Part shown: piece by piece, positions 19,129-38,000 of the stretch
Layout of the letters: each line of letters opens with the position of its first letter
How positions within the stretch are numbered: the stretch's first letter is position 1
Assembly: GCF_021390645.1 (NCBI RefSeq)
Contig: NZ_JAJEJT010000003.1
Location: 310,001-374,000 of the forward strand
Direction: 5' to 3'
DNA from: Paraburkholderia flagellata
GTDB lineage: Bacteria > Pseudomonadota > Gammaproteobacteria > Burkholderiales > Burkholderiaceae
DNA length: 64,000 nucleotides
Made by a program: the position numbers and the translations under genes
Notes under the pieces: model-generated
Told to the model about the DNA's origin: nothing
Seen by the model: only the letters and a program-made list of their open reading frames with translations
Database searches by the model: none

Positions 19129-19142
19129 TTGAGGTATCCGGT

Positions 19143-19700: not shown

Positions 19701-19739
19701 CGCCTGGAGCGACGCAGGCCTGATATGAAGGCGCGTGCG

Positions 19740-19780
19740 TTGCTGGCACGCGTGCCGCCATTATGATTTGGATTCCAAAT
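19740..19780 (+). promoter_or_regulatory. Promoter overlapped by palindromic operator, upstream of the PuuA-like gene
   Basis: TTGCTG (19740-19745) and TATGAT (19762-19767) are 16 bases apart, a plausible sigma-70 promoter. A 7-1-7 interrupted palindrome, ATTTGGA-T-TCCAAAT (19766-19780), overlaps the -10 box and the predicted transcript start, the classic location for repression. Confidence 0.55.
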
Positions 19781-19822
19781 TAACTAGCAGGTCCACCATC
19801 TCTCGCTAACGAGGAACCCGAA

Positions 19823-21169
19823 GTGAGTGCCATCGCAACTGACCTCCTGAGCGAAGTACGCGCCTTTCGCGCGGCTCATCCCGATGTGCAATACGTCGAC
19901 CTGATTTCCCTCGATATTCCGGGGCATTTCTACGGCAAGCGCTATCCCATCGCCATGCTAGAGAAGGTGGCTGCCGGCACGCTGCTCAAGGTGCCGCAAA
20001 ACTGCATCCTGCTTGGTGCGCAAGGCGGGCTGTATTCGATCGGTGAATACTGCTTCCACGACGGCGACCCCGACGTGCCACGCCGCCTCGTGCCCGGCAC
20101 GCTCAAGCCGGTGCGCTGGGAGCGTCAGCCGCTCGCGCAGATGCTGATGACCTCGGACGGCACAGCGACGCCCATTGGGTTCGAGCCGCGCCAGGTGCTC
20201 GCGCGCGTGCTCGATCGCTTCACGCGGCGCGGCCTCAAGCCGGTGGTCGCGTTCGAGCTGGAGTTCTATCTGTTCGATGCGAAGCTGCACGAAGGTCTGC
20301 CGCAGCATGCGCGTGATCCGCTATGCGAGGATGAAGACGATCAGCCGAACATGCATATCGAGCGCCTATCGCGTTTCGCGCCCGTGCTGCACGAGATGGT
20401 CGAGTCCGCACGCGAGCAGGGTGTGGATGCGACCGTCATCACCGCCGAACTCGGGCCGGGGCAGTTCGAAATCAATTTTGGCCATTGCGATGACGCGCTG
20501 CGCGCAGCGGACTGGTCCGCGCTCTTTTGCCGAAGCACTCGCGGTGTGGCGCTGCGCCACGGTTATCGCGCGAGCTTCATGTCGAAGCCGCTGCTCGACG
20601 TCCCGGGCAGCGGCATGCACGTGCATGTGAGCCTCTACGACGAGGCGGGCCGCAACGTGCTAGCGGCACGCGAGCGGCGCGCGCTGCGTCATGCGGTGGC
20701 GGGTTGCCTCGCGTTGCTCCCGCATTGCATGCCCGTCTTCGCGCCCAATCACAACGCGTTCCGGCGCTATGGCGCGATGGTCAACGCGGCGAGCCGGGCG
20801 AGCTGGGGTTTCGAGGACCGCGATGCCTGCATCCGCATTCCCGAGTCCGACGAAGCAAATCTACGCATTGAACACCGGCTCGCGGGGGCGGACGCCAACC
20901 CGTATCTCGTGCTCGCGGCCATCCTCGCCGGAATCGAGCAGGGCCTGGAAGCGGGCCGCGAACCGATTGCGCCGCTCAACGACGACCGCGCGAGCGGCAT
21001 CGATTTTCCGGGCGACATGCTCTCGGCGGTGGCCGCCATGCGCCGGCATGCCGGGGTGCGCGAGGGGCTCGGCGACGACTTCACCATGGTTTATTGCGAA
21101 AATAAACGGCAGGATCACCTTGATTTTATGAACGCGATCGGGGCACGAGAATATCGCTGGTTTTTGTAA
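19823..21169 (+). CDS. Glutamine synthetase-family ligase, gamma-glutamylpolyamine synthetase-like (PuuA type)
   Basis: 448 residues, GTG start with GAGGA upstream. The type-I glutamine synthetase fold is evident: FELEFYLFD with metal-binding Glu, ELGPGQFEINF, GSGMHVHVSLYD with the conserved His pair, NAFRRYG and the C-terminal RIEHRLAGADANPYL block with active-site Arg. Length and the Puu-like neighbours favour a gamma-glutamylamine synthetase over ammonia assimilation; substrate unproven. Confidence 0.88.
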   Translation: MSAIATDLLSEVRAFRAAHPDVQYVDLISLDIPGHFYGKRYPIAMLEKVAAGTLLKVPQNCILLGAQGGLYSIGEYCFHDGDPDVPRRLVPGTLKPVRWERQPLAQMLMTSDGTATPIGFEPRQVLARVLDRFTRRGLKPVVAFELEFYLFDAKLHEGLPQHARDPLCEDEDDQPNMHIERLSRFAPVLHEMVESAREQGVDATVITAELGPGQFEINFGHCDDALRAADWSALFCRSTRGVALRHGYRASFMSKPLLDVPGSGMHVHVSLYDEAGRNVLAARERRALRHAVAGCLALLPHCMPVFAPNHNAFRRYGAMVNAASRASWGFEDRDACIRIPESDEANLRIEHRLAGADANPYLVLAAILAGIEQGLEAGREPIAPLNDDRASGIDFPGDMLSAVAAMRRHAGVREGLGDDFTMVYCENKRQDHLDFMNAIGAREYRWFL

Positions 21170-21986: not shown

Positions 21987-22988
21987 TCAAGGCCGCTTGC
22001 CTGACCTCCAGGCCGAGACGCTGCATCCATAGCGGCCTGTGAACCACCTTGAGAACGCACTCAACGAAGAGAAGCCCAACAGCCTCGCCACATCAGTAAA
22101 GGGACGTTCACCAGACTCGACGTAGCGGGTCACGAGTTCGGCCCTGACCTCGTCGACGATCGATAAATAGGTGTGGCCGTGCTCGGCAAGATGCCGGTAG
22201 AGCGTCTTACGGTGCATGCCAAGCTTCTGGGCGACGAGCCCAGAATCGCAATCACCAACCTGCAGCATGGCAAACACGAGTTCCCGGACCTTCTCCGGCA
22301 CGCTCGCGTTTGACTGTGCCAGCTTCGCATTGAGAAATTCCCGCGCGTATGACGCGAGCAACGGATCGTACGAAGAGATCGGCGTATCCAGGACGGCACT
22401 CGTGAGCACGATGCCATCGAAGTCCCTGCCGAAATCGACAGGCACGCCGAATATGCGCCGGTGTGCAGCAAGGCTGCGTGGCGCCCGATGGGAAAAGCAG
22501 ATGCAGCGAGGCCGCCATTCGCCCCCCAAAAGCGATGCCAGCGTGCGATGCAGGACGCAGACGACCAGTTCGACCGACTGACGAAACGTACCGGGCCCTG
22601 CATTGAGTACCTCCACTATGAGCGTCGCAACGTCTCCAGACTCCAGCACCCGCGCGCCCATTGCCTCGTTTTGCAGACGCACGTAGCGCGAGAACGAATC
22701 CAGCGCACGTCGCAGGGTTGGCTCTTCCTGCAGGGCAATGGCCAACGGACCGAGATTGGAGAGCTGCCGCGTCTCTCCCATGCGAAGACCAAAGTCCGAT
22801 GCACCGCTTTTCGCAGCGGATTCTTCAAGCATGCGCATGACTGGCTCGGCAGGAAGCCGGATGTCCGGATCAAGCAATGCCGCCGCGCTGATGCCCGCCC
22901 GGCGCAGCTCCGCGTGGGGATCGAGCCCCACTTCACGTGCAACAGTCACATAGTTAGTCAGGCTTGCGCTTCTCAGCAATGACGGCAT
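21987..22988 (-). CDS. AraC-family transcriptional regulator (cluster A)
   Basis: 333 residues from the ATG at 22988, which has GGAG upstream. The N-terminal domain (residues 1-200) is the arabinose-binding-like PF12625 type (SLTNYVTVAREVGLDPHAELRRA recast in paralogues). The C-terminal AraC DNA-binding domain contains VAQKLGMHRKTLYRHLAEHG and FTDVARLLGFSSLSAFSRWF. It is closely similar to the AraC protein at 48.9 kb and more distantly to that at 29.0 kb. It is transcribed away from cluster A and probably activates it. Confidence 0.92.
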   Translation of the reverse strand: MPSLLRSASLTNYVTVAREVGLDPHAELRRAGISAAALLDPDIRLPAEPVMRMLEESAAKSGASDFGLRMGETRQLSNLGPLAIALQEEPTLRRALDSFSRYVRLQNEAMGARVLESGDVATLIVEVLNAGPGTFRQSVELVVCVLHRTLASLLGGEWRPRCICFSHRAPRSLAAHRRIFGVPVDFGRDFDGIVLTSAVLDTPISSYDPLLASYAREFLNAKLAQSNASVPEKVRELVFAMLQVGDCDSGLVAQKLGMHRKTLYRHLAEHGHTYLSIVDEVRAELVTRYVESGERPFTDVARLLGFSSLSAFSRWFTGRYGCSVSAWRSGKRP

Positions 22989-23011
22989 AGGGATCTCCAC
23001 CAGTGCCTCAA

Positions 23012-23041
23012 AATGTAAAGTATCTCGCCACAAAATGGCAA
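23012..23041 (-). promoter_or_regulatory. Promoter of the cluster A AraC gene
   Basis: On the minus strand TTGCCA (23041-23036), an 18-base spacer and TACATT (23017-23012). The -10 region lies in a 17-base block (CTTTACATTTTGAGGCA) that recurs with two changes upstream of the AraC gene at 48889. Confidence 0.55.
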
Positions 23042-23133
23042 ATTCATCCGCTTCTTTTCGCTGACACTTCGACCACGCCGACGCATGCGGAAGCACGTCG
23101 ATCAACGAAGGATTCCGAAAGATGGGAAGCCAC

Positions 23134-23385
23134 ATGGCACACGCAATTCGAATGCACAAGACGGGCGGCCCTGAGGTCATGCGGTGGGAGCCGATCGACG
23201 TCGGCACGCCTCGCCCTGGTCAGGTTTGGCTGCGTCACGCGCTCGCAAGCAAGCTCTTTGGTCACGTCGCGGCCGGCAGGATCAAGATCGAGATCAACCA
23301 GCGCTACGAATTGCCAGACGCTGCGCAGGCCCACCGCGATCTCGAGGCGCGCAAGACCACAGGTTCATCGGTTTTCACCGTCTGA
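23134..23385 (+). pseudogene. Internally deleted quinone oxidoreductase (MDR family)
   Basis: 83 codons, still in frame. The first 36 residues align with residues 1-36 of the intact quinone oxidoreductase at 33165-34145 (TGGPEV, PGQV, LRH) and the last 47 align with its residues 280-326 (LFGHVAAGRIKIE, AQAHRDLEARKTTGSSVF). About 243 residues, with the whole NADPH-binding fold, are missing. It cannot be an active enzyme. It is followed after 10 bp by a TauD gene, the same spacing as in the intact copy, so it is a relic of a duplicated gene pair. Confidence 0.9.
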
Positions 23386-23395
23386 CGAGGCTTTC

Positions 23396-24244
23396 ATGAG
23401 AATCGAGCCGCTTACCTGTTCGATCGGCGCCGAGCTGTTCAACGTGAACCTGGCTCACGCCGTCCACGACGACGGTCTGTTTGCCAGCATCCGTGCGGCG
23501 CTGCTCAAGTATCGCGTACTGTTTCTGCGCGGCCAGGACATCACGAGCGCCGAACACGTGGCCTTTGCACGCCGCTTCGGCGAACTCGAGGATCACCCGG
23601 TCGCCGGCAGCGATCCTGAGCATCCGGGGCTCGTGCGCATCTACAAGGACCCGAGCCAGCCCAGCCCGCGCTACGAGAACGTCTGGCATACCGATGCCAC
23701 ATGGCGTGAAGCGCCCCCGTTCGGGTGCGTGCTGCGTTGCCGTGAATGCCCGCCGGTCGGCGGCGACACGATGTGGGCCAACATGGTCCTCGCCTACGAG
23801 AACCTGCCGGCTCACGTCAAGGAGCAAATTGCCGATCTGCGTGCGCGCCACAGTATTGAGGCGAGCTTCGGGGCTGCGATGTCTATCGAAAGGCGCCTCG
23901 CCCTGAAAGCCCAATATCCGGATGCCGAGCACCCGGTCGTGCGCACGCATCCCGAAACGGGCGAAAAGATCCTCTTCGTCAATGCTTTCGCCACGCACTT
24001 CACCAATTACCACACGCCGCAGCGCGTTCGCTTCGGACAGGACGCCAATCCGGGCGCCGGACAGTTGCTGGCCTACCTGCTGAGTCAGGCCTATCTGCCG
24101 GAGTACCAGGTGCGCTGGCGCTGGACGAAGAACAGTGTGGCGATCTGGGACAACCGCAGTACGCAGCACTATGCGGTCATGGACTACCCGCCCAGCGTTC
24201 GCCAGATGGATCGCGCGACGATCGTCGGCAACAGGCCGGTCTGA
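23396..24244 (+). CDS. TauD/TfdA-family Fe(II)/2-oxoglutarate dioxygenase (cluster A)
   Basis: 282 residues. The 2-His-1-carboxylate iron site is His98-x-Asp100 (VWHTDATW) and His258 (DNRSTQHYAVMDY), with Arg269 as the probable 2-oxoglutarate anchor. The family hydroxylates a carbon next to a sulfonate, ether, amine or phosphonate. It is a close paralogue, of equal length, of the protein at 34156-35004. Neighbours are an MFS importer, two SDRs and an HD-domain protein, which suggests hydroxylation followed by oxidative cleavage of a small organic substrate. The substrate is unknown. Confidence 0.92.
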   Translation: MRIEPLTCSIGAELFNVNLAHAVHDDGLFASIRAALLKYRVLFLRGQDITSAEHVAFARRFGELEDHPVAGSDPEHPGLVRIYKDPSQPSPRYENVWHTDATWREAPPFGCVLRCRECPPVGGDTMWANMVLAYENLPAHVKEQIADLRARHSIEASFGAAMSIERRLALKAQYPDAEHPVVRTHPETGEKILFVNAFATHFTNYHTPQRVRFGQDANPGAGQLLAYLLSQAYLPEYQVRWRWTKNSVAIWDNRSTQHYAVMDYPPSVRQMDRATIVGNRPV

Positions 24245-24345
24245 TCCGCAAGGGCGGCGGCATACCCGCGGGCCGATTTCATGGCCCACAGCCATTCGAC
24301 TTTCCGAAGTAGCCAATCACAAGGGCAGTCTACAAAGGGGACATC

Positions 24346-25644
24346 ATGCTGGAAGAGAAAATTGGCTCGTTTGCCGGACCCGCCGTCCCGGTGCGCACGA
24401 CCCACTCGCGCATTTATGCGTGGGTGGTGTTCGGATTGATCTTCGGCCTCATGCTCTCCGACTACATGTCGAGACAGGTGCTGAATGCGGTGTTCCCGCA
24501 ACTAAAGGCCCAGTGGCATCTCACCGACGCGCAGCTCGGCCTGCTCAGCGGCGTGGTCGGCCTGATGGTCGGCTTGCTGGCCTTTCCGGTGGCGCTGATC
24601 GCAGACCGCTGGAACCGGACGCGAAGCGTCGTGTTGATGGCGCTCTTCTGGAGCCTCGCTACGCTCGGATGCGGGCTCGCGGAAAACTACGGTCACATGC
24701 TGACCGCACGACTGCTCGTCGGGATCGGTGAAGCCGGTTATGGCAGCGTCGGCCTCGCCATCATCCTGAGTGTGTTTCCAGCGTCAATGCGGGCCACTCT
24801 CACGGGCGCCTTCACTTCCGCCGGGATGCTCGGCTCGGTGCTTGGCATGGCGGGCGGTGGAGTGATCGCGGCGCGCTTTGGCTGGCGCACCGCCTTCATC
24901 GGGATGGCGCTGTTCGGGATCGTGCTTGTCCTTGCGTGCGCCGTGACCGTTACGGAAGCCCGTGTGAAGCACCACGCGCGTCGCAACGAGAGCGGGGCGC
25001 GCGGTGTTGCTCAGTCGCTGCCGAAGCTCATCAAATCGCTGTTCTGCACGCCAACGCTGGTTTTCACGTATGTGGGCAGCGGTCTGCAGCTCTTCACTGC
25101 CTACGCCATCATTGCCTGGCTGCCCAGTTACCTCAATCGCTACCACCACATGGCCCCGGCGAAAGCCGCTCTCTCTGCCGCGCTCATGCTGATCGTGAGT
25201 GGCGTGGGCATGGCGGTCTGCGGGATCGTCACGGACTGGGTCGCGCGCAAGTCATTGGGCGGCAAGGTCACACTGGCGATCGGCTACTGCCTTGGATCAT
25301 GCGTACTGCTGATGATTGGCATGCGTATGGACGCGGGCGGCGCCCAGTTCGTTGTCATCGCCGCTGGTGTGTTTCTGGCCGCGGGGACCTGGGGGCCCGC
25401 GGGAGCGATGGCGACCAACCTCGTTCATCCCTCGATTCTTTCCACGGCGCTAGCCACTTTGACGCTCGCCAACAACCTGCTCGGCGGCGCGCCCGGGCCC
25501 TGGCTGACCGGGGTCCTGGCGGACCGCATTGGTTTGCTTGGCGCCCTGCAACTGATTCCGCTGGTCTCCGTCGCTGCGGCGCTCGCGTTTGCCTGCGCCA
25601 AAGTGACCTACGAGCGCGACCTGCGCCGCTTCCAGACAACGTGA
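24346..25644 (+). CDS. MFS transporter (cluster A)
   Basis: 432 residues with about 12 membrane helices. Family motifs include SDYMSRQVLNAVFPQLKAQW, the loop 2-3 motif (ALIADRWNRTRSV) and VGIGEAGYGSVGLAIILSVFP, features of Spinster-like and related MFS carriers. Preceded by AAAGGGGAC before its ATG. It is a paralogue of the transporter at 31502-32824 and presumably imports the cluster's substrate. Confidence 0.9.
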   Translation: MLEEKIGSFAGPAVPVRTTHSRIYAWVVFGLIFGLMLSDYMSRQVLNAVFPQLKAQWHLTDAQLGLLSGVVGLMVGLLAFPVALIADRWNRTRSVVLMALFWSLATLGCGLAENYGHMLTARLLVGIGEAGYGSVGLAIILSVFPASMRATLTGAFTSAGMLGSVLGMAGGGVIAARFGWRTAFIGMALFGIVLVLACAVTVTEARVKHHARRNESGARGVAQSLPKLIKSLFCTPTLVFTYVGSGLQLFTAYAIIAWLPSYLNRYHHMAPAKAALSAALMLIVSGVGMAVCGIVTDWVARKSLGGKVTLAIGYCLGSCVLLMIGMRMDAGGAQFVVIAAGVFLAAGTWGPAGAMATNLVHPSILSTALATLTLANNLLGGAPGPWLTGVLADRIGLLGALQLIPLVSVAAALAFACAKVTYERDLRRFQTT

Positions 25645-25694
25645 GGACCGTAGGGCGAGTGCGCCCCGCCGCTTGAACCATACAGGAGTTTTTG

Positions 25695-26426
25695 ATGACA
25701 CAGACCAGTACACCTTTCTCCCTCGACGGAAAGATCGCCGTCATTACCGGTGCGGGCCGCGGCATCGGCCGCGCGATTGCGCTGGCGTATGCGCGCGCGG
25801 GCGCGTCCGTTGTGTGCAGTGCGCGCAGCGAAGAGGAGATCGTAGAGACCGCCGCGCTGATCCGCGATGGGGGGGGAGCGGCGATCGCGCAGACGGCAGA
25901 CGTCGCCAACTACACTGACACGGTTGCGCTGTTTCAGCGCGCGACTGATGCATTTGGCGGTATCGATATCGTCGTAGCAAACGCCGGTGTCGCTTCTGAT
26001 CTGCGCAAGATCGAGGACAGCGATCCGGCAGAGTGGCGCAAAGCAATCGACATCAATCTGAACGGCGCCTATCACACCGCGCACGCGGCCATCCCGCATC
26101 TGCGCCGGCGCGGGGCCGGCAAGATCATCATGGTGGGCTCGGGGCAGCGCAACCGCCCGGTGCCCGGCTTCTCCGCCTATTCGTGCTCAAAGAGCGGTCT
26201 GTGGATGCTGACCCAGTCGTTGGCCGTGGAACTGCTCGATTACAACATTAGCGTCAACGAACTCATTCCGGGTCCCGTGAAAACCGCCATGACGCGCGAC
26301 GTCCCGATGCCGGTTGGCGAGTGGGCCAAGCAACCCGAAGACGTGGTGCCGTTGGCCCTGTTCCTCGCCAGCATGCCCGACGGAGGGCCGACGGCACAAA
26401 GCTATAGCCTGATGCGGCGCGCGTGA
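25695..26426 (+). CDS. SDR-family oxidoreductase (cluster A, first)
   Basis: 243 residues, ATG at 25695 with CAGGAG upstream. Cofactor motif ITGAGRGIGRAIA, structural NAG (VANAGV), catalytic Ser in MVGSGQRN, and Tyr-x3-Lys in SAYSCSKSG are all present, so a functional NAD(P)-dependent dehydrogenase or reductase is predicted. It could oxidise the alcohol made by the dioxygenase. The C-terminus (GGPTAQSYSLMRRA) replaces the usual TGQxxxVDGG ending. Confidence 0.9.
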   Translation: MTQTSTPFSLDGKIAVITGAGRGIGRAIALAYARAGASVVCSARSEEEIVETAALIRDGGGAAIAQTADVANYTDTVALFQRATDAFGGIDIVVANAGVASDLRKIEDSDPAEWRKAIDINLNGAYHTAHAAIPHLRRRGAGKIIMVGSGQRNRPVPGFSAYSCSKSGLWMLTQSLAVELLDYNISVNELIPGPVKTAMTRDVPMPVGEWAKQPEDVVPLALFLASMPDGGPTAQSYSLMRRA

Positions 26427-26466
26427 GTCTCACAGGCAATCCAATACTCAGAAAGTGGAGATATTC

Positions 26467-27342
26467 ATGCTGATGAACGAACAGGCTGGCCATTCCAGCA
26501 AAGCGGCGGCATCGAACGCAGGCCCGCTCGCGGGTCGCGTCGCGCTGATCACGGGGGCCGGTCGTGGCCTTGGGGGAACCATCGCCCGGCATTTTGCGCG
26601 AGCGGGCGCGGACATCGTCATCTGCGACGTAAATCTGGCCGCCCTCGAGGAAACGCGGCAAGCCGTCGAAGCAATCGGGGCCCGCTGTATGGCGCTCGAC
26701 TGCGACATCACGTCGAGCAGCAATGTGAGGGCGATGTTCTCAGCAATCGTCGAGCGCTTTGGCACCTTGCACATTCTGGTGAACAACGCGGCGGTGGGCC
26801 CCACGGCTGCTCCTGACGAGGTGAGACGCAACAAGCATTACGCGTACATCACAACGCCGCAGCCCCGGCGAGCGCTTGGCTTCACGAGCGAGATCACCGA
26901 CGAGGACTGGCATCGCTATTGGGACGTCAACGTCCACGGTACGTTCTACTGCACGCGTGAAGCACTCAAGTTGATGCAGGGGCAAAAATACGGCCGTATC
27001 GTGAATCTTGCCTCAGTGGCGGGCTTCTCGACCATCAGCGCTCACAGTCCGCACTACAGTGCCACCAAAGGGGCGGTCATTGCGTTCACGAAAGCCGTCG
27101 CGGCTGAGGTCGCGGGCGGCAACGTCCTCGTCAATGCGCTTGCGCCGGGCGGGGTGTCGACGCCATTCTTCGAGCAATATCTGGACTCCATCGGCGAGGA
27201 GGCACGCAACCGGTTCTGGCAGATCGTACCCGCCGGGCGGTTTGGCACGATGGATGAATACGCAGCGGTCGCAACGTTCCTCGCAGGCGATCACTACTTT
27301 GTCGGGCAGGTCATCAGCCCCAATGGCGGCGCCGTAATCTGA
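26467..27342 (+). CDS. SDR-family oxidoreductase (cluster A, second)
   Basis: 291 residues from the ATG at 26467 (GGAG upstream). TGAGRGLGGTIA, NNAAV, SVAGF and Tyr-x3-Lys (HYSATKGAV) are intact, and it ends FVGQVISPNGGAVI. Between NNAAVGPT and DEDWHRYWDVNVHGT there is an insert of about 35 residues rich in Arg/Pro (around residues 115-145), unusual for the family and perhaps a substrate lid. Same strand, 40 bp after the previous SDR gene. Confidence 0.9.
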   Translation: MLMNEQAGHSSKAAASNAGPLAGRVALITGAGRGLGGTIARHFARAGADIVICDVNLAALEETRQAVEAIGARCMALDCDITSSSNVRAMFSAIVERFGTLHILVNNAAVGPTAAPDEVRRNKHYAYITTPQPRRALGFTSEITDEDWHRYWDVNVHGTFYCTREALKLMQGQKYGRIVNLASVAGFSTISAHSPHYSATKGAVIAFTKAVAAEVAGGNVLVNALAPGGVSTPFFEQYLDSIGEEARNRFWQIVPAGRFGTMDEYAAVATFLAGDHYFVGQVISPNGGAVI

Positions 27343-27449
27343 GTGGCGAATGCGTGGCGCGCGCAGGCCTGAGCGGGCTGGGCGGCGCACGCCGCGTACC
27401 ACTGCCCGGAATTCTATCCATTCACTCATCCAATCTGCGACGCCGCATC

Positions 27450-28028
27450 ATGACACTGGCCACGTTCAAACGCATGCAGGACAGCACCCAGGAGGACTGG
27501 GGCATCATCAAGCCGCAAGCTGCGGAGTACTTCTCCAAACTGCCCGGGCGGGTGATTGCGCACCTGTCGCTGCTCCAGGGGGAATTCAGCGGATTTCCAA
27601 TCGACCGCTATCAGCACTGTCTCCAGACCGCGACCTTGGCGCTGAAGGACGGCCGTGACGACGAGTACGTGGTGTGCGCGTTGTTGCACGATATTGGAGA
27701 CACGCTCGGCTCGTACAACCATCCCGAAATAGCGGCCGCCATCCTCAAACCCTTCGTGTCCGAAGCGAACCTTTGGATGATTGAGCACCATGGCATTGTG
27801 CAGGGTCACAACTTCTTCCACCATATTGGCATGGACCGCAATATGCGTGAGCAGCTCAAGGAACATCCCCACTATCAACGCACGCTCGAGTTCGTCGATC
27901 TCTACGACGATCCGGCATTTGACGCCTCGTCGCAGACCTGGTCGATCGATGTGTTCGAGCCGATTGTGCGTCGGGTGATGAATACTCCGAAACGATCGAT
28001 CTACAAAACGATTACCGAGGCGGTATGA
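27450..28028 (+). CDS. HD-domain protein, PhnZ/TmpB-like putative diiron oxygenase
   Basis: 192 residues, ATG at 27450. It contains RYQHCLQTA (His56), LLHDIGD (His80-Asp81), NHPEIAAAIL (His91), MIEHHGIVQGH (His113/114) and LEFVDLYDD (Asp150). This order of His, His-Asp, His, His, Asp is that of HD-domain mixed-valence diiron oxygenases (PhnZ, TmpB, MIOX) and their relatives annotated as phosphonate-associated HD proteins; ordinary HD phosphohydrolases are the alternative. In PhnY/PhnZ and TmpA/TmpB such a protein cleaves the product of a 2-oxoglutarate dioxygenase, and one is encoded 3 kb upstream here. It ends cluster A. Confidence 0.75.
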   Translation: MTLATFKRMQDSTQEDWGIIKPQAAEYFSKLPGRVIAHLSLLQGEFSGFPIDRYQHCLQTATLALKDGRDDEYVVCALLHDIGDTLGSYNHPEIAAAILKPFVSEANLWMIEHHGIVQGHNFFHHIGMDRNMREQLKEHPHYQRTLEFVDLYDDPAFDASSQTWSIDVFEPIVRRVMNTPKRSIYKTITEAV

Positions 28029-28998: not shown

Positions 28999-30009
28999 CT
29001 AGTCGCGCCGCATCAGGTGGCCCGCACGCCACGCTCGCGGCGTCACGCCAGATCGCGCCGTAAACCACTTGGTGAATGAGCCCTGCTGGGTATAGCCGAG
29101 CAGAGCGGCCACCCGGCCGATGGGATAGCTCGGATTCATCATGTAGCGGACCGCCAGATCCCCCCGGACTTCGTCAAGAAGCGCCGAGAAACTGGTATCG
29201 GCGGATTCGAGATGGCGCTGCATGGTCCGCACGCTCAGTCCCAGATGGCGGGCGACCAGTTCGACGGTGGCCTGCTCGAGCGGCAGCAACAGATAAATCG
29301 CCTTGCGTACTTCCAGCACCTTCGAATCAATGTCAGCCACGTTCATCGGACCGGCCAGGCTTTCTGCATAACGAACGAGTTCTGGATCGGCGGCGGGATT
29401 CGGGTAGTCGAGATCGTCAGCGGAGCAAATGAACCCGTTGAAATCGCTCCGGTAGACCAATGGGCAGCCGAAGAAGCGCCGATGAAACGTCAAATCCGCT
29501 GGGGCTGAGTGGGCAAAGTGAACGGCGCGCGGTTTCCAGCGCTCGCCGATCAGGGCACTGGAGTGGCGCATGAGGACGCCGACAGCTAGTTCGATCGCCT
29601 GCCTCGTTGGCGTACCTGGGTGAACGACCAGTTCCTCCCGGATGGTGACTGTTTCACCGGCGGTCTCGACGTGCATCGCGAGCGCTTCATTGAGCAAATG
29701 GCGGTATTGGGCCGTGGCGAGCAACACCTCGCGAAGCGTACGCTTGTGTGCCAACAGGACATTGACAACTCCAGCCCCAAAATTTCGCCGCGTTTCGGCC
29801 ACTTGCAGGCCGAAAGTCGGACAGCACGCCATTTCCGCGGACAACTCCATCAACTCGCAAGCCGCTGCGACCGGGACGCGGTCATCGGGATTTGCGAGCG
29901 CTGCCGCATCGATGCCGACCTTTTGAACCAGGTCGACCGGGTTGAGCCCGAGACGTCGGGCCACATCGAAATACCCGCTCATGGCTGCCGATCGCAGCAT
30001 AGTTTCCAT
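28999..30009 (-). CDS. AraC-family transcriptional regulator (cluster B)
   Basis: 336 residues, AGAGG before the ATG. N-terminal arabinose-binding-like domain (YFDVARRLGLNPVDLVQKVGI), C-terminal AraC domain with VARHLGLSVRTMQRHLESAD and GRVAALLGYTQQGSFTKWF. More divergent from the other two AraC proteins in the window than they are from each other. It faces away from cluster B, which it probably controls. Confidence 0.92.
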   Translation of the reverse strand: METMLRSAAMSGYFDVARRLGLNPVDLVQKVGIDAAALANPDDRVPVAAACELMELSAEMACCPTFGLQVAETRRNFGAGVVNVLLAHKRTLREVLLATAQYRHLLNEALAMHVETAGETVTIREELVVHPGTPTRQAIELAVGVLMRHSSALIGERWKPRAVHFAHSAPADLTFHRRFFGCPLVYRSDFNGFICSADDLDYPNPAADPELVRYAESLAGPMNVADIDSKVLEVRKAIYLLLPLEQATVELVARHLGLSVRTMQRHLESADTSFSALLDEVRGDLAVRYMMNPSYPIGRVAALLGYTQQGSFTKWFTARSGVTPRAWRAGHLMRRD

Positions 30010-30303
30010 TTCAACCTCTTTTCTTCACCGACTCGACGTCAGCCTCGATTGCCCGGCTTCAGATATTGACGCATCGGAGCAATTGAAATCCAGTGTGACG
30101 TTGACTTTTCAACTTATACACCACCCTGAGACGCTCGCGCCGGGTATCGGTGTTTTCACCAGCTGACACGAAAAGATAAAACGATGGCGTCAAATCACAA
30201 AAGTGCAAACCGCGTCTGCCGTATCGTGCGTTAGCGGCGGCACGATTCAGGGACCATTCCCCGGTCATGCTGGAGAGCCACCATCCTCAGGAGCCTGGAA
30301 CAA
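30010..30303. other. Divergent promoter region of cluster B
   Basis: 294 bp shared by the AraC gene and the BKACE gene. A TTGACT lies at 30102-30107 on the + strand but no matched -10 box is clear. No palindrome comparable to those elsewhere was found. Confidence 0.4.
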
Positions 30304-31359
30304 ATGCAATTTCTCGACGACTCGTTGCACCCCGAGAATCAGGACAAAGTTGTTATCACAACTGCACCGTACGGACCGGAATGGATGCCCGAAGATTTCC
30401 CGGAAGACATTCCGGTGACGATGGAAGAGCAGATCCAGAAGGCTGTCGACTGCTACAACGCTGGCGCGACCGTTCTGCACCTGCATGTGCGTGAACTCGA
30501 CGGCAAGGGCTCCAAGCGCCTCTCGAAGTTCAATGAGCTTATCGCCGGCGTGCGCGCCGCGGTGCCGGACATGATCATCCAGGTGGGCGGCTCGATCTCG
30601 TTCGCGCCGGAAGACGAAGGGCAGGCCGCCAAGTGGCTCTCCGACGATACGCGTCACATGCTCGCCGACCTCGAACCTAAGCCGGACCAGGTCACGGTCG
30701 CGATCAACACGACGCAGATGAACATCATGGAGCTGCTTTATCCGGAGTATCTGGAAGGCACGTCGCTCTCCAACCCTGCGTTCATGGCCGCCTACAGCGA
30801 AATGACGGTTCCCGCCGGTCCCGCGTGGGTGGAGGAGCATCTGCGCCGCCTGCAGGCTTCGGGCATTCAGCCCCACTTCCAGCTCACCGGCATTCACGCC
30901 CTCGAGACGCTCGACCGCCTGGTGCGCAAGGGCGTGTACATGGGGCCGTTGAACCTCACGTGGATTGGCATTGGCGGTGGCTTTGACGGCCCGAACCCGT
31001 TCAACTTCGCTAACTTCGTCCACCGTGCGCCGGATGGCTGCACGCTCACCGCCGAGTCGCTGCTCAAGAACGTGCTGCCGTTCAACATGATGGCGATGGC
31101 TATGGGCCTGCATCCGCGCTGCGGTATCGAGGACACGATCATCGACCAGCACGGCAAGCGCTTCACGTCCGTGCAGCAGATCGAGCAGTGCGTGCGCGTG
31201 GCGCGCGAGCTGGGCCGTGAAATTGCCACGGGCAAGGAAGCACGCGAGATTTACCGCATTGGCGTGCAGTACGAAACGATCGACGAGACGCTCACGGCCA
31301 ACGGCATGGCGCCGAACCGCAAGCCCGGCGTGAGGAATCTGCCGTTGCGCGCGGCGTGA
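30304..31359 (+). CDS. Beta-keto acid cleavage enzyme, long BKACE (DUF849) type
   Basis: 351 residues. The zinc ligands of the family (His46, His48, Glu230 in Kce) correspond to His59 and His61 (VLHLHVRE) and Glu276, and the substrate Arg to Arg272 (PRCGIED, preserving the Arg-x3-Glu spacing). BKACEs condense a beta-keto acid with acetyl-CoA to give acetoacetate and a new CoA ester. It is about 40 residues longer than classical members and is a close paralogue of the protein at 47682-48740. First gene of cluster B. Confidence 0.9.
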   Translation: MQFLDDSLHPENQDKVVITTAPYGPEWMPEDFPEDIPVTMEEQIQKAVDCYNAGATVLHLHVRELDGKGSKRLSKFNELIAGVRAAVPDMIIQVGGSISFAPEDEGQAAKWLSDDTRHMLADLEPKPDQVTVAINTTQMNIMELLYPEYLEGTSLSNPAFMAAYSEMTVPAGPAWVEEHLRRLQASGIQPHFQLTGIHALETLDRLVRKGVYMGPLNLTWIGIGGGFDGPNPFNFANFVHRAPDGCTLTAESLLKNVLPFNMMAMAMGLHPRCGIEDTIIDQHGKRFTSVQQIEQCVRVARELGREIATGKEAREIYRIGVQYETIDETLTANGMAPNRKPGVRNLPLRAA

Positions 31360-31501
31360 TGGATTGGACACCGATGCGGGCGTGAGCTGGCGTCGGGGCT
31401 CCAGAGGTAGTATGCCGCGGCGACACGGGGTGCCAGTCGCGGCCAATTTGTCCAAACGGACAGAGCGGTCACCAAAAAGCTAGACGTGAAGGAGACAAAC
31501 G

Positions 31502-32824
31502 ATGCTCATGCAGCATGCTGAGCCCACGACGGGTGATGTTTCAGTGGCAAAAGACGACGTGCGCGCCTATGCCTGGGTCGTGTTTGCATTGACGGCCGGG
31601 TTGCTGCTTTCCGACTACATGTCGCGGCAGGTCCTGAATGCCGTGTTTCCTCTGCTCAAGAGCACCTGGAGCCTCTCCGACACACGGTTGGGATCGCTGA
31701 GCAGCGTGGTCGCACTGATGGTCGGCGTGCTGACCTTTCCGCTGTCGGTCCTCGCCGACCGCTGGGGACGAGTGAAAAGCATCATCCTGATGGCGGCGAT
31801 GTGGAGTCTTGCGACGCTGGGCTGCGCACTCTCGACGAACTACGGCGAAATGCTGCTCGCACGCGCCTTCGTTGGCATCGGCGAAGCCGCCTACGGCAGC
31901 GTCGGGGTCGCGCTGGTTCTGAGCATCTTTCCGGCACGCCTGCGCTCGACCCTCACCGCGTCGTTCATGGCGGGCGGGGCATTTGGCTCCGTTCTGGGCA
32001 TGGCCATCGGCGGTGCGGTAGCGGCTCATGTCGGTTGGCGCGCGGCCTTCGGCACGATGGCCGGGCTTGGGCTCGCTCTGGTCGTCGTGTATCGCTTCGT
32101 TGTCACCGAAAAGCGCCTTGCGCCGATGCAACCGGCCAGCGTGAGCCGCGCGGCGAAAACGCCGGGCGTGCGCACGAGTTTCCGTACCCTGATGAAAGGA
32201 CTCTTTTCGACGAAGTCGGTCATTTGCGCCTATGTCGGCAGCGGCTGCCATCTGCTGGTTCCCGCAGCGGTCTGGGCGTGGGTGCCGAGTTTTCTGAACC
32301 GCTACTACGGCATGGCCACCGCCCAGGCGGCGGCGACAGGTGCGCTCTTTGTTCTCGTCACGGGCGTGGGCATGGTGGTGTGCGGTAACCTGGCCGACCG
32401 CGTCAGCAAGAATCGCCCGCAGAATAAGTGGGCAACGGCCATCGCCTATTGCCTGATCTGCTTCACGCTGCTCGCGATCGGCTTTCGCATGCCCGCCGGC
32501 ACACTGCAACTCGTGGTGATCGGCTGCGGGATGTTCTTCTGCGCAGGGGCGAGCGGCCCTTCGGGCGCAATGGTAGCAAACCTCACGCCGCCGTCGATCC
32601 ACGCGTCCGCATTTGCCACGCTGACGCTGGCAAACAACCTGCTCGGACTGGCCCCGGCTGCCGTCCTGACGGGTCTGGTCGCAGACCATATTGGCCTCCT
32701 CGGCGCATTACAACTCGTGCCGTTTGCGTCCCTGATCGCGGCCACCGCCTTCTTCATCGGCAAGCGCAACTACGGCCGCGATCTGGATCGCGTGAATGCA
32801 CTACGTGAGCAGGCCGCGTATTGA
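31502..32824 (+). CDS. MFS transporter (cluster B)
   Basis: 440 residues, start at 31502 preceded by AAGGAG. It aligns along its length with the cluster A carrier (SDYMSRQVLNAVFP, VLADRWGRVKS, VGIGEAAYGSVGVAL, LANNLLGLAP). About 12 helices. Predicted importer of the cluster's substrate or a related compound. Confidence 0.9.
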   Translation: MLMQHAEPTTGDVSVAKDDVRAYAWVVFALTAGLLLSDYMSRQVLNAVFPLLKSTWSLSDTRLGSLSSVVALMVGVLTFPLSVLADRWGRVKSIILMAAMWSLATLGCALSTNYGEMLLARAFVGIGEAAYGSVGVALVLSIFPARLRSTLTASFMAGGAFGSVLGMAIGGAVAAHVGWRAAFGTMAGLGLALVVVYRFVVTEKRLAPMQPASVSRAAKTPGVRTSFRTLMKGLFSTKSVICAYVGSGCHLLVPAAVWAWVPSFLNRYYGMATAQAAATGALFVLVTGVGMVVCGNLADRVSKNRPQNKWATAIAYCLICFTLLAIGFRMPAGTLQLVVIGCGMFFCAGASGPSGAMVANLTPPSIHASAFATLTLANNLLGLAPAAVLTGLVADHIGLLGALQLVPFASLIAATAFFIGKRNYGRDLDRVNALREQAAY

Positions 32825-33164
32825 CAGATTGAGCTGATGGGACCTGCGCCGCTGCCCACGTTCGCGGGTCGGGCGCAGTCCTCGGGTCGAGCGCAAGTCT
32901 AGAGTAAGCGCTCGATCCGTGGCGGTACGTCGCGCAAGAACGTCGATTCTGCGTATATGCTTGATATATCAACTAGATAATTGATTTCTCGTCGTTTTGT
33001 TATTAGACCCCTGCGGTAATTTTTACTTTGGACATTGGGCGCTGCGGCGCGCCATACACGCCCAAACAAACGACTGATCTGGGAAATGCGCCTGGGGCAG
33101 GGACGATCTGTTCCGCCGCAGGCGAATTGCATTTTGCATCCGACTAACGGATAGGAGATTGAAC
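32825..33164. other. Region before the quinone oxidoreductase gene
   Basis: 340 bp. Left half has no gene; the AT-rich right half carries a palindrome (separate entry), indicating an internal promoter for the oxidoreductase-to-BON part of cluster B. Confidence 0.45.
32961..32985. promoter_or_regulatory. Palindromic operator candidate before the quinone oxidoreductase gene
   Basis: TTGATATATCAA (32961-32972) is a perfect 12-bp palindrome; its right half ATCAA pairs again with TTGAT at 32981-32985. The sequence lies in an AT-rich island about 180-200 bp before the ATG. Confidence 0.4.
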
Positions 33165-34145
33165 ATGGCGAAGGCAGTACGCTTTTATGAAACCGGTGGT
33201 CCCGAAGTCTTGCGCTACGAAAGCGTCGAAGTGGGCGACCCCGGCCCCGGGCAGGTCCGCCTGCGCCATGAGGCAGTCGGCCTGAATTTCGCCGATACCT
33301 ACTTCCGCTCCGGCCTGTACCCCGTTCCGCTGCCTGCCGGCATGGGCGTGGAAGCCGCGGGCGTGGTCGAGGCCGTGGGCCCCGAGGTGACCAACGTCGC
33401 AGTGGGCGACCGCGTGACCTACACCGGTTTCATCAACACGCTCGGCGCGTACAGCACCGAACGCCTGATCCCGGCGGCGCCCCTCATCAAGCTGCCCGAC
33501 GCGATTGCGTGCGAAACGGCGGCCGGCATGACCATGCGAGGCCTCACGTCGTCGTACCTCATGCGCCGCATCCACGACTTCAAGGCCGGCGACACGATCC
33601 TGCTGCATGCAGCCGCGGGCGGTGTCGGCCTGATCGTCTCGCAGTGGGCGAAGCTGCTGGGCCTCACGGTGATCGGCACGGTGTCGAACGAGGCGAAAGG
33701 CGAAGTGGCGCGCGCACATGGTTGCGACCACATCATTTACTACGGCCGCGAAGATGTCGCGAAGCGCGTGCGCGAACTGACGAACGGCGTGGGCGTGAAC
33801 GTGGTGTTCGACAGCGTGGGCAAGGACACCTTCGAAGCGTCGCTCGACTCGCTCAAGCGCCGCGGCCTGATGGTTTGCGTCGGCACGGCTTCGGGCCCGA
33901 TTCCGCCGTTCAATCCGCAGATCCTCGCGATGAAGGGCTCGCTCTATCTCACGCGCCCGGCGCTGGCGGACTATATCGCCGACCCCGCGGAAAAGAACGA
34001 GCTGGCTTCCGAGCTGTTCGGGCACGTTGCCGCGGGCCGCATCAAGATCGAACTGAACCAGCGTTACGCGCTGGAAGACGCGGTGCAGGCGCACCGCGAC
34101 CTCGAAGCGCGCAAGACGACGGGGTCGTCGGTCTTCGTCATCTGA
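33165..34145 (+). CDS. Quinone oxidoreductase, zinc-independent MDR family
   Basis: 326 residues, ATG at 33165 with GGAG upstream. N-terminal GroES-like domain (ETGGPEVL, PGQVRLRHEAVGLNFADTYFR), NADPH-binding Rossmann motif HAAAGGVGLIVSQWAKLLG, and no structural or catalytic zinc Cys pattern, as in QOR. It reduces quinones or alpha,beta-unsaturated carbonyls with NADPH. The TauD gene follows after 10 bp. A deleted copy exists at 23134-23385. Confidence 0.93.
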   Translation: MAKAVRFYETGGPEVLRYESVEVGDPGPGQVRLRHEAVGLNFADTYFRSGLYPVPLPAGMGVEAAGVVEAVGPEVTNVAVGDRVTYTGFINTLGAYSTERLIPAAPLIKLPDAIACETAAGMTMRGLTSSYLMRRIHDFKAGDTILLHAAAGGVGLIVSQWAKLLGLTVIGTVSNEAKGEVARAHGCDHIIYYGREDVAKRVRELTNGVGVNVVFDSVGKDTFEASLDSLKRRGLMVCVGTASGPIPPFNPQILAMKGSLYLTRPALADYIADPAEKNELASELFGHVAAGRIKIELNQRYALEDAVQAHRDLEARKTTGSSVFVI

Positions 34146-34155: not shown

Positions 34156-35004
34156 ATGAAAGTCGAACAACTGACCTATGCCATCGGCGCGGAACTGACC
34201 GGCGTGAATCTCGCCGATGCCGTTCACGACGACGCGCTCTTCGCCGAGATTCGCGCGGCGCTGCTCAAGCACCGTGTGCTGTTCCTGCGCGACCAGAACA
34301 TCACGCGCACCGAGCACGTGGCGTTCGCGCGCCGCTTCGGCGAGCTGGAGGATCATCCGGTGGCGGGCAGTGACCCGGAGCATCCGGGCCTCGTGCGCAT
34401 CTACAAGAACCCGGAGCAGCCCAACGACCGTTACGAAAACGCGTGGCACGCGGACGCCACCTGGCGCGAGGCGCCGCAGTTCGGCGCGGTGCTGCGCTGC
34501 GTGGAGTGCCCGCCCGTGGGCGGCGACACGATGTGGGCGAACATGGTGCTCGCCTACGAGAAGCTGCCGGAACACGTGAAGGCGCAGATCGACGGCCTGT
34601 ATGCGCGCCACAGCATCGAGGCGAGCTTTGGTGCGGCCATGCCGATCGAAAAGCGCCATGCCCTGCGGGCGCAGTTTCCTGACGCGGAACACCCGGTGGT
34701 GCGCACGCATCCGGAAACCGGCGAGAAGGTGCTGTTCGTGAGCGCGTTTGCGACGCACATCACGAACTATCACACGCCCGATCGTGTGCGCTACGGTCAG
34801 GACGCCAACCCGGGCGCGGGCGACCTGCTGCGCTATCTCGTGAGCCAGGCCTATATTCCGGAGTACCAGGTACGCTGGCGCTGGAAGCCGAACAGCATCG
34901 CGATCTGGGACAACCGCAGCACCCAGCACTATGCAGTGATGGACTATCCGCCGTGTCACCGCAAGATGGAACGCGCCGGCATTATCGGCGACAAGCCGTA
35001 CTGA
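34156..35004 (+). CDS. TauD/TfdA-family Fe(II)/2-oxoglutarate dioxygenase (cluster B)
   Basis: 282 residues. Iron ligands His98, Asp100 (AWHADATW) and His258 (STQHYAVMDY), with Arg269 the probable co-substrate anchor. Roughly four fifths of positions appear identical to the cluster A copy. Here the partners are a quinone oxidoreductase, a serine hydrolase and an acyl-CoA synthetase rather than an HD oxygenase, so the two copies may act on different substrates or at different steps. Confidence 0.93.
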   Translation: MKVEQLTYAIGAELTGVNLADAVHDDALFAEIRAALLKHRVLFLRDQNITRTEHVAFARRFGELEDHPVAGSDPEHPGLVRIYKNPEQPNDRYENAWHADATWREAPQFGAVLRCVECPPVGGDTMWANMVLAYEKLPEHVKAQIDGLYARHSIEASFGAAMPIEKRHALRAQFPDAEHPVVRTHPETGEKVLFVSAFATHITNYHTPDRVRYGQDANPGAGDLLRYLVSQAYIPEYQVRWRWKPNSIAIWDNRSTQHYAVMDYPPCHRKMERAGIIGDKPY

Positions 35005-35026: not shown

Positions 35027-35587
35027 ATGACGCTTGAAACCACACCGACCATTCTGATGGTCCCGGGGTTGCGCGACCACGTGGCGGAGCACTGGCAGAC
35101 GCTGCTGGAAAGCCGGCTGCCCAAGGCGGCCTCGGTGCCGCCTCTCGAGCACGACAAACTGAGCTGCGCGGCGCGCGTGGCCGCGCTCGACGCGGCGCTC
35201 GCGAAGATCGACGGTCCCGTCATTCTCGTCGCGCACAGCGCGGGCGTGATGATCACGGTGCATTGGGCGCAGCAGCACAGCCGCAAGATTCATGGCGCGC
35301 TGCTAGCCGCGCCGGCGGACCTCGAAACGCCGCTGCCGGCGGGTTATCCGGCCTTCGACGCGCTGGCCGAAAACGGCTGGCACCCGATTCCGCGCAAGCC
35401 GCTGCCGTTCCCGAGCATCGTGGGCGCGAGCCGCAACGATCCGCTCGCGCAGTTCGAGCGCGTGGAGGCGATGGCCAGGGATTGGGGCAGCAGCCTGGTC
35501 GATCTCGGCGAAGTGGGACACCTTAATCCAGCCGCCGGCTTCGGCGAATGGCCGATGGCGGAGAGCCTGATCCGTGAACTTCTCTGA
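35027..35587 (+). CDS. RBBP9/YdeN-family serine hydrolase
   Basis: 186 residues, alpha/beta-hydrolase fold. ILMVPGLRDHVAEHWQTLLE opens the domain; the nucleophile is Ser in VAHSAGV, the acid Asp in ASRNDPLA and the base His in VGHLNPAAG. Length and motifs fit the RBBP9/YdeN family of small esterases. Its stop overlaps a possible upstream start of the next gene. Confidence 0.9.
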   Translation: MTLETTPTILMVPGLRDHVAEHWQTLLESRLPKAASVPPLEHDKLSCAARVAALDAALAKIDGPVILVAHSAGVMITVHWAQQHSRKIHGALLAAPADLETPLPAGYPAFDALAENGWHPIPRKPLPFPSIVGASRNDPLAQFERVEAMARDWGSSLVDLGEVGHLNPAAGFGEWPMAESLIRELL

Positions 35588-35636
35588 CCCGCGCGCGGTG
35601 AATGCTGGAAACGACACCGCCAGCAACGAGCATGCG

Positions 35637-36278
35637 ATGACGATCGAGGTTTTTCTCGATTTCATCTGTCCGTGGTGCCTGATCGGCAAACGCAACCTGG
35701 AAACGGCCTTGCGCCGCTTCGCGCAATTGCGGCCTGATGTACCGATCCAGGTGCTGTGGCGCTCGCACCAACTGTTGCCCGGCACACCCCCAGAAGGGAT
35801 GTCATACCAGGCGTTCTATCTCGCCCGGCTCGGAAGTCCCGAGGCAATTGCGACGAGGCGGGCGCAGGTGCGGGCCGCAGCCCATGCTGCGGGCATCACG
35901 TTGGCGTTCGAACGCATCGAGGTGCTGCCGAACACGACACTTGCCCACCGCCTTCTTGGCTGTGCGATCGCTCACGGCACCGACGCGCAGCAAGCAACGC
36001 TGGTCGAGCGTCTGTTTGGCGCCTACTTCGTTGAGGGTAGGGACATCGGCAATCTGCATGTGCTTGAGGAGATCGGCCTTGAGTGTGGCCTGAATCACGA
36101 GGCCATGCTCGACCATTGGACGGACTCCCATGAACGCCGCAGCGGCGGGCTGTCGCCGCAGGCTCAGCATGGCATCAGCGGTGTTCCGACCTTCGTGTTC
36201 AACAGGAAATTTGCGCTCTCAGGCGCACACGCTCCCCACGCGCTGCTGGAAGCCTTGATGCAGTCTGCTCCGGCATAA
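35637..36278 (+). CDS. DsbA-family (FrnE-like) thioredoxin-fold oxidoreductase
   Basis: 213 residues from the ATG at 35637; a GTG at 35574 overlapping the previous stop would add 21 unconserved residues. IEVFLDFICPWCLIGKRNLE carries the CPWC pair of the FrnE group, and GISGVPTFVFNRKFALSGA has the cis-Pro loop. No signal peptide, so cytoplasmic. The group includes 2-hydroxychromene-2-carboxylate isomerase-like and disulfide-active proteins; role here unknown. Confidence 0.88.
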   Translation: MTIEVFLDFICPWCLIGKRNLETALRRFAQLRPDVPIQVLWRSHQLLPGTPPEGMSYQAFYLARLGSPEAIATRRAQVRAAAHAAGITLAFERIEVLPNTTLAHRLLGCAIAHGTDAQQATLVERLFGAYFVEGRDIGNLHVLEEIGLECGLNHEAMLDHWTDSHERRSGGLSPQAQHGISGVPTFVFNRKFALSGAHAPHALLEALMQSAPA

Positions 36279-36371: not shown

Positions 36372-38000
36372 ATGCAAGGCTTGATGATGCAGCAACCGCT
36401 GCTGGTTGCTTCGCTGCTCAGGCATGCTGAACGCCACCATGGCACACGGGAAATCGTGTCGCGGCGTGTCGAGGGAGATATTCACCGTTACACGTACCGG
36501 GACCTGGCGCAACGCGCGCGCCGCATGGCCAACGCCCTGACGGGGCTCGGTGTGAAGCCAGGCGAGCGAGTAGGGACGCTCGCATGGAACGGATACCGGC
36601 ACATGGAGCTCTATTTCGCCGTCTCGGGTTCCGGGTCCGTGCTGCATACGCTCAACCCGCGGCTGCATGTCGATCAGCTCGCCTATATCATCGAGCACGC
36701 CGAAGATCGCGTGGTGTTCTTTGACCTCACGTTCCTGCCGCTCATCGAAAGCGTGGCGGCTAAGGTCAAGAGCCCCAAGGTTTTCATCGCGATGACCGAT
36801 CGCGCGCACATGCCTCGGGGCCACGGCTTGTCCACGATGCTCATGTGCTACGAAGACCTCGTCGACGGCCACAGTGACGAATTCGAATGGCCGCTGCTGG
36901 ACGAGAACACAGCGTCGTCGCTGTGCTACACCTCGGGCACGACCGGCAATCCGAAGGGCGTGCTCTATAGTCACCGCTCGACCCTGCTGCACACCTACGC
37001 GGCCGCGTTGCCCGACGCTCTGAACTGTTCGGCCCGTGACGCCATTCTTCCTGTCGTGCCGATGTTCCATGTGAACGCGTGGGGCCTGCCGTACATCGCG
37101 TGCATGGTCGGCGCGAAGCTCGTGTTCCCGGGACCGGCGCTGGACGGCAAGTCGCTCTATGAGCTTATCGAAGGGGAACACGTCACGCTATCGGCCGGAG
37201 TGCCGACGGTCTGGCAGGGCCTGCTTGCACACGTCGAATCGGTGAAGGGTTCATTCTCGACGATGCGCCGCACGATCATCGGCGGCGCACCGTGTCCGAC
37301 GGCGATGACGACGGCATTCCAGAAGGAGCATCACGTCGAAGTGCTCCATGCGTGGGGCATGACGGAGTTGAGCCCGGTCGGCACGGTCTGCAGTTTCAAG
37401 GCGCATCAGGTCGATCTGCCTGATGCGCAGCGTTATGCATTGCAAGCGAAGCAGGGCCGCTCGGTGTTCGGCATCGACATGAAGATCGTCGACGTTGCGG
37501 GCAAGGAACTGCCCTGGGACGGCGCGGCCGCTGGCGATCTGCTCGTGCGCGGCCATTGGGTGACGCGTGATTACTTCGGCGGCGATTACAGCTCGCCGCT
37601 CCTGGACGGCTGGTTCCCAACCGGTGACGTCGCAAAGATCGATGCCGACGGCTTCATGCAGATTACCGATCGCAGCAAGGACGTGATCAAGTCCGGCGGC
37701 GAGTGGATCAGTTCGATCGACATTGAAAACATCGCGAGCCTGCACCCGCAAGTGGCCGTGGCGGTCTGCATTGCGGCGCGCCACCCGAAGTGGGATGAGC
37801 GGCCGCTTCTGCTGATCGTGCCCAAGGCCGGCAGCGCGCTGTCCGCAGAGGGACTGCTGGACTTCTTCGATGGGCGCATCGCGAAATGGTGGAAGCCAGA
37901 CGCGGTGGTGTTCATCGATTCGGTCCCGCTCGGCGCAACCGGCAAGGTGCTCAAACATCAGTTGCGCGATCAGTACGGCAACTACTATCTGTCGGCCTGA
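36372..38000 (+). CDS. Acyl-CoA synthetase (AMP-binding), medium/long-chain type
   Basis: 542 residues from the ATG at 36372, with GAGGAG upstream. P-loop-like CYTSGTTGNPKGV near residue 190, adenylate motif WGMTELSPV, and the hinge DRSKDVIKSGGEWIS followed by a C-terminal catalytic Lys in ATGKVLKHQLRDQ. It activates a carboxylic acid to its CoA thioester. In cluster B it could feed or use products of the BKACE and hydrolase. Confidence 0.92.
   Translation: MQGLMMQQPLLVASLLRHAERHHGTREIVSRRVEGDIHRYTYRDLAQRARRMANALTGLGVKPGERVGTLAWNGYRHMELYFAVSGSGSVLHTLNPRLHVDQLAYIIEHAEDRVVFFDLTFLPLIESVAAKVKSPKVFIAMTDRAHMPRGHGLSTMLMCYEDLVDGHSDEFEWPLLDENTASSLCYTSGTTGNPKGVLYSHRSTLLHTYAAALPDALNCSARDAILPVVPMFHVNAWGLPYIACMVGAKLVFPGPALDGKSLYELIEGEHVTLSAGVPTVWQGLLAHVESVKGSFSTMRRTIIGGAPCPTAMTTAFQKEHHVEVLHAWGMTELSPVGTVCSFKAHQVDLPDAQRYALQAKQGRSVFGIDMKIVDVAGKELPWDGAAAGDLLVRGHWVTRDYFGGDYSSPLLDGWFPTGDVAKIDADGFMQITDRSKDVIKSGGEWISSIDIENIASLHPQVAVAVCIAARHPKWDERPLLLIVPKAGSALSAEGLLDFFDGRIAKWWKPDAVVFIDSVPLGATGKVLKHQLRDQYGNYYLSA

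Follow-up and report, generated by a model that had tools for sequence, protein, structure and literature searches.

A TauD-type dioxygenase and a predicted diiron HD-domain protein in a candidate carboxylate catabolism module of Paraburkholderia flagellata

In a 64,000-nucleotide stretch of Paraburkholderia flagellata DNA (contig NZ_JAJEJT010000003.1, positions 310,001 to 374,000; hereafter the window), we describe a gene run, cluster A, that begins with a gene for an Fe(II)/2-oxoglutarate (2OG) dioxygenase of the TauD type and ends with a gene for an HD-domain protein. Our leading interpretation, to which we give a probability of roughly 45%, is that the cluster forms part of a larger catabolic module, whose substrate is of the carboxylate type and no phosphonate, with the HD protein acting in the same pathway as a diiron oxygenase. 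The genes are TauD_A, MFS transporter A, the short-chain dehydrogenases (SDRs) SDR1 and SDR2, and HD, all on the + strand with intergenic gaps of 28-107 bp, and an AraC-type regulator gene is divergent from them, ahead of TauD_A. TauD_A (23396..24244, 282 aa) belongs to the TauD/TfdA family by its PF02668 match (3.6e-63) and its HxD...H triad, and the iron ligands that a preliminary description of this DNA had named are all present, H98 and H258 being located by alignment and D100 lying within a WHTD motif. Its closest PDB sequence is 5vn6, 'Taurine dioxygenase' (4.4e-166), and it falls below the NCBIfam taurine dioxygenase cut-off (NF007104, 250.2 vs 313 bits). The companion genes are also as described earlier: a transporter (24346..25644; Pfam MFS_1, 8.8e-40) that is presumably an importer, two full SDRs by Pfam adh_short (SDR1, 25692..26426, 1.8e-54; SDR2, 26455..27342, 5.4e-52) and the regulator (21987..23207, - strand; Arabinose_bd and HTH_18 by Pfam). 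The start of the regulator in the open reading frame (ORF) list is possibly too far upstream, and its orthologs adjoin the module in Paraburkholderia mimosarum (locus L011) and in two Pseudomonas genomes (L012 and L013). For HD (27450..28028, + strand, 192 aa), the ATG at 27450 is preferred over the GTG at 27354 because the family alignment begins there. Compared with P. mimosarum, HD has a nonsynonymous divergence (dN) of 0.09 and a synonymous divergence (dS) of 0.89, and dN/dS is 0.07-0.10 for HD, SDR1 and SDR2 in this comparison and for HD against Pseudomonas L013; the cluster A genes are under purifying selection and their coding is real.

The HD protein had been proposed to follow the ligand order of diiron oxygenases, with H56, H80-D81, H91, H114 and D150. 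In an alignment of the window protein with 60 relatives from a phylum-wide draw (n = 61), the four His and the Asp of the His-Asp pair are each conserved in 61/61 sequences, and this part of the proposal stands. D150 is rejected as the distal ligand, since position 150 is Asp in 5/61 only; its place is taken by D153 (codon 27906..27908, + strand), Asp in 61/61. When the HD set is aligned by hhalign to 13 PhnZ-type proteins (E 6.7e-21, probability 99.3), D153 falls on the Asp of their RRWDD motif. Neither the fourth His nor the distal Asp has thus been lost in any family member aligned, and the predicted set H56/H80/D81/H91/H114/D153 draws on the family alignment, an AlphaFold2 (AF2) model and fold comparison. 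Because some HD hydrolases carry the same six-ligand pattern, it is not diagnostic by itself, and the placement of the protein rests on the profile and fold comparisons.

These comparisons, which the preliminary description had called for and in which the AF2 model has a pLDDT of 95.3, support a grouping of the HD protein with PhnZ, TmpB and MIOX and away from the phosphohydrolases; in neither profile nor predicted fold does a hydrolase come near the oxygenases. It could still be argued that the protein has some general function as a metal hydrolase, be it a phosphohydrolase or another kind, and is present in the cluster by chance or for housekeeping, as its public names ('phosphohydrolase' or 'HD domain-containing protein'), a ligand set that alone is common to some HD hydrolases, and the many sampled loci without a 2OG-oxygenase or carnitine neighbor would allow. 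Given the comparisons above, and a module that seems to have gained HD twice (see below), we consider this explanation improbable. In a tree, the HD side forms a clade of exactly 134 tips with support 0.924, on which we rely; a monophyly test of the PhnZ set came out negative after rooting. The window protein differs from MIOX in that it has no Pfam match to that family (PF05153) and finds MIOX in a PDB profile search at E 0.32 only, while 11 of the 28 members of the HD set A1 match PF05153 with E values of 1 or less, the best being 2.7e-5. The HD protein is a small and probably iron-binding member of what appears to be a large, unstudied group related to the phosphonate- and inositol-cutting enzymes.

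The kinship in fold and ligands with PhnZ, the partner of PhnY, and TmpB, the partner of TmpA, raises the alternative that the cluster encodes a phosphonate pathway like PhnY/PhnZ or TmpA/TmpB. This reading would gain from a locus elsewhere in the phylum (L160) where the dioxygenase beside an HD relative passes the NCBIfam TmpA cut-off (422.5 vs 400), those of L161 (358) and L162 (317.7) falling short. We hold this alternative to be highly improbable. The HD protein scores far below the cut-offs of the models for PhnZ (TIGR03276, 36 bits vs 214.6), PhnZ1 (22.9 vs 300) and TmpB (NF049941, 39.6 vs 300), it has F46-S-G-F49 in place of the YxxE motif (position 49 being F in 31 and Y in 30 of the 61 sequences), and an invariant Gln118 replaces the Lys of the HVDAK motif of the phosphonate enzymes. 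Its partners are SDR, MFS and BKACE genes, and among the part of the window's genes that was scanned by family neither a phn gene nor a phosphonate transporter reached its cut-off, in line with what had been reported. An ABC ATPase gene at 3415 is below the PhnT2 cut-off (392.6 vs 457.7) and above that of the polyamine model TIGR01187 (358.1 vs 355.6), and a DAO gene at 17839 remains below the cut-off for aminophosphonate oxidoreductase (TIGR03329, 162.9 vs 632.8 bits). The genome furthermore has a separate PhnZ-type gene (G000:C2:471630-472157) that does pass TIGR03276 (244.7 vs 214.6 bits); by eye, it sits after ABC-permease-like and GntR-like ORFs. Because the phosphonate HD cut-offs were missed and no phn gene passed among the window genes scanned, the phosphonate pathway is rejected as the leading view. 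The earlier suggestion of a substrate other than a known phosphonate is borne out to the extent that none of the findings indicates a phosphonate, and the gene neighborhood is suggestive of organic acid breakdown.

The gene order in relatives extends the module beyond cluster A. Pseudomonas tumuqii (L013) has a single + strand run, QOR-TauD-BKACE-MFS-SDR1-SDR2-HD, with gaps of 14-84 bp, where QOR is an NADPH:quinone-reductase-like MDR, and Pseudomonas sp. Leaf48 (L012) has QOR-TauD-SDR1-SDR2-HD; the pairing of TauD with HD noted earlier is therefore found within one gene run in the window and in two Pseudomonas genomes. In the window the parts of the L013 module are split over cluster A and a cluster B (28999-35004), consisting of a second AraC-type regulator by Pfam (28999..30009, - strand) and, on the + strand, BKACE (30304..31359; Pfam BKACE, 2.6e-61), MFS transporter B (31502..32824, 55% identical to MFS A), QOR (33159..34145; NF008024, 362 bits, cut-off 348) and TauD_B (34156..35004, 80% identical to TauD_A). 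Clusters A and B very likely serve a single pathway. BKACE enzymes act on a beta-keto acid and acetyl-CoA. In the order of steps that we propose, the MFS proteins would import the carboxylate-type substrate, TauD would hydroxylate it using 2-oxoglutarate and O2, oxidation of the alcohol product by the SDRs would give a beta-keto acid, and BKACE would split this acid with acetyl-CoA. The HD protein, as a putative diiron oxygenase of the PhnZ/TmpB/MIOX branch, would act on a hydroxylated intermediate arising along this route, with O2-dependent cleavage yielding a shorter carboxylate. The TauD/SDR/BKACE set can be read as the logic of the gamma-butyrobetaine route, in which gamma-butyrobetaine dioxygenase (BBOX), carnitine dehydrogenase and BKACE take part, carried out by other enzyme families. 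In passages of PMC12421898, these three are described as clustered in an Arctic SAR11 island, which resembles the window in combining a hydroxylase, a dehydrogenase and BKACE in one cluster and differs from it in the TauD-type hydroxylase, the SDRs and the MFS transporters of the latter; the main text of that paper has zero occurrences of 'HD domain'.

The HD family is large and has other recurrent partners. At least 7984 of the 8000 candidates scored in a search with the HD protein were significant, the nearest named relatives among the matches listed being from Paraburkholderia (88% identity in P. sacchari). The window protein has matches at 1e-20 in 90/398 genomes of its bacterial family, and the HD family profile has matches at 1e-30 in 59/398 genomes of the phylum, compared with strong PhnZ-type (TIGR03276) matches in 13/120; across the phylum, the HD family is no rarer than the PhnZ type. 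We examined 60 of the 61 places outside the window's own genome that the phylum-wide profile search returned (G583 was left out). A gene adjacent to HD on the same strand was a TmpA-like dioxygenase in 3/60 (L160-L162), a PhyH-type 2OG oxygenase in 6/60 (L171, L173, L175-L177 and L183) and a carnitine-dehydrogenase-like gene in 6/60 (L165-L167, L169, L170 and L172), and a class II aldolase gene occurred within the stretch in 4/60. The PhyH-type gene is directly upstream of HD, abutting or overlapping it by a few bases in several loci, and was confirmed by Pfam PhyH in L175 and L183. A first TauD model, for which seven of the eight input proteins came from this genome, had missed the TmpA-like neighbors, and PF02668 matches were then listed and a second model used. 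At the TauD density found (154 in 248.7 Mb, from 57 of the 58 other genomes) 0.007 adjacent cases would be expected in 60, related genomes not being independent; as a positive control, at least six of the ten PhnZ-type genes that lie outside the window's own genome and in genomes covered by both the PhnZ-type and the TauD-family listings have a TauD-family gene directly beside them. In L160, the dioxygenase, HD and an OpuAC-type binding protein (257 vs 379 for the choline model) share one strand, and the other strand holds a BKACE gene and a non-adjacent gene at 413.7 vs 414 for L-carnitine dehydrogenase. The gene after HD in L166 reaches 590.8 vs 592 for carnitine 3-dehydrogenase, and the other five adjacent genes of this kind were matched by similarity to the L166 gene only. 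HD relatives thus lie near carnitine-dehydrogenase-like genes in seven loci, a further likeness to carnitine catabolism. It can be hypothesized, though we think it rather unlikely, that the HD family comprises further diiron oxygenases that cleave C-C rather than C-P bonds, in hydroxylated carboxylates supplied by 2OG hydroxylases of several subfamilies (TauD, TmpA/BBOX-like and PhyH). By analogy with TmpB, a concrete case would be the conversion of carnitine and O2 to glycine betaine and glycolate, which balances as a four-electron reaction, and in the window an organic acid may be shortened in an analogous way, independently of CoA.

In a wider set of 139 HD loci, a class II aldolase gene occurs anywhere in the stretch in 27, of which 14 have it adjacent on the same strand; the other partners counted were TauD-type (6, excluding the window's own L001, whose stretch stops before TauD), TmpA-like (5), PhyH (6) and carnitine dehydrogenase (7). 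This set is uneven and partly redundant, L001 being the window, L011 and L050 one species, and L047/L063, L080/L164 and L085/L163 the same places. The 14 loci with a class II aldolase/adducin-family gene directly beside HD are L015-L018, L032, L042, L046, L054, L056, L076, L127, L129, L154 and L155; among them is a Sphingobium plasmid of 12.9 kb. We know of no function for such a pair. In L020, L021, L024, L026 and L039, HD is flanked by genes for a FadB-like protein and a thiolase, and acyl-CoA dehydrogenase and SDR genes follow downstream; the run resembles one for beta-oxidation. A single universal partner is ruled out, as the neighbors vary by clade (class II aldolase, beta-oxidation, carnitine, 2OG oxygenases or none recognized).

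SDR1 matches at 1e-70 were present in 12 of the 144 genomes of the genus, and all 12 loci were inspected. TauD is near SDR1 in 11, the exception being G248 (apparently P. mimosarum, as L011), and HD adjoins SDR1/SDR2 in three, the window's own locus, G248 and G157. Several observations weigh against the HD protein acting within the TauD pathway. The other nine loci (L090-L098) have TauD, QOR, BKACE, SDR1, an SDR2 match (weak in L094-L098, at 139-144 bits) and MFS and no HD in the stretch fetched, L098 being an 8.2 kb contig that ends inside the module. Three of the nine genomes (G428, G225 and G463, the last 85% complete and the source of L098) have no HD match at E 1e-10 genome-wide, and in the other six HD matches lie elsewhere, two of them partial (G412 and G213). 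The P. mimosarum run is MFS-SDR1-SDR2-HD, without TauD; 51 of the 60 HD loci have no match to any of three 2OG-oxygenase models; and the commonest of the five partners counted in the 139 loci is the class II aldolase. Because the L090-L098 modules lack it, HD is a dispensable add-on and not part of the module core. The nine modules without HD, the HD without TauD in L011 and the frequent aldolase neighbor would fit a pathway made up of TauD, SDR and BKACE in which the HD protein, while a true oxygenase, acts not next after TauD but on another molecule, perhaps a by-product or an additional substrate, a possibility that we take seriously but find doubtful. It has to contend with the TmpA-like and PhyH genes that abut HD elsewhere and with L069, where the order is SDR2, SDR1, HD, TauD. 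The HD protein of L069 is 86% identical to that of L059, from another genus, and 56% to the window protein, and since it belongs to a separate clade, the SDR/TauD module seems to have gained or swapped HD separately. This apparent independent recruitment is the strongest evidence that the link between the TauD module and HD matters. Altogether, TauD is in the run in four of the five genomes showing SDR1-SDR2-HD (the window, L012, L013 and L069; not L011). Downstream of HD in L011 (10935-15479) are genes for a weakly AurF-like protein (Pfam, 22.7 vs 29.6 bits; no match at 1e-5), a 2Fe-2S ferredoxin reductase and an isocitrate-lyase-family protein, which could possibly provide a replacement hydroxylase.

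Cluster B is followed on the + strand by genes for a serine hydrolase (35027..35587; Pfam Ser_hydrolase), an overlapping DSBA-family protein (35574..36278; Pfam DSBA) and an acyl-CoA ligase matching the 3-(methylthio)propionyl-CoA ligase model (36387..38000; NF005426, 910 bits, cut-off 822); short ORFs that by eye look similar to the serine hydrolase gene follow the module in several loci. The QOR-TauD_B region (33135-35935) has 95% DNA identity to a copy on the same contig, 795 kb away (G000:C3:1138392-1141192); the BKACE-MFS part (30304-32816) matches at 82%, and the contig carries four TauD paralogs of TauD_A with 66-80% identity. A further BKACE gene (47682-48740; Pfam, 2.1e-66) and a divergent AraC-type regulator gene (48889-49887) lie next to each other farther along the window. 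Upstream of cluster A, a run of FAD amino-acid oxidase, XRE-cupin regulator and glutamine-synthetase-like genes (17839-21169) resembles gamma-glutamylputrescine catabolism, with the specific NCBIfam cut-offs missed.

Passages of PMC8177086 (2020) put the known HD-domain oxygenases at three, MIOX, PhnZ and TmpB, describe the YxxE substrate loop and express the hope that conserved features will reveal more such enzymes; those of PMC10574752 add a PhnZ for methylphosphonate and PhoF, a fungal fusion. Among the open-license papers listed in our searches, none gave an account of the HD family described here. It has the ligands of the oxygenases without the loop of the phosphonate enzymes, and it is repeatedly encoded next to 2OG hydroxylase and carnitine genes. 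If one member proves to use O2, the names of thousands of 'phosphohydrolases' would come into question, and a new C-C cleavage chemistry would be opened.

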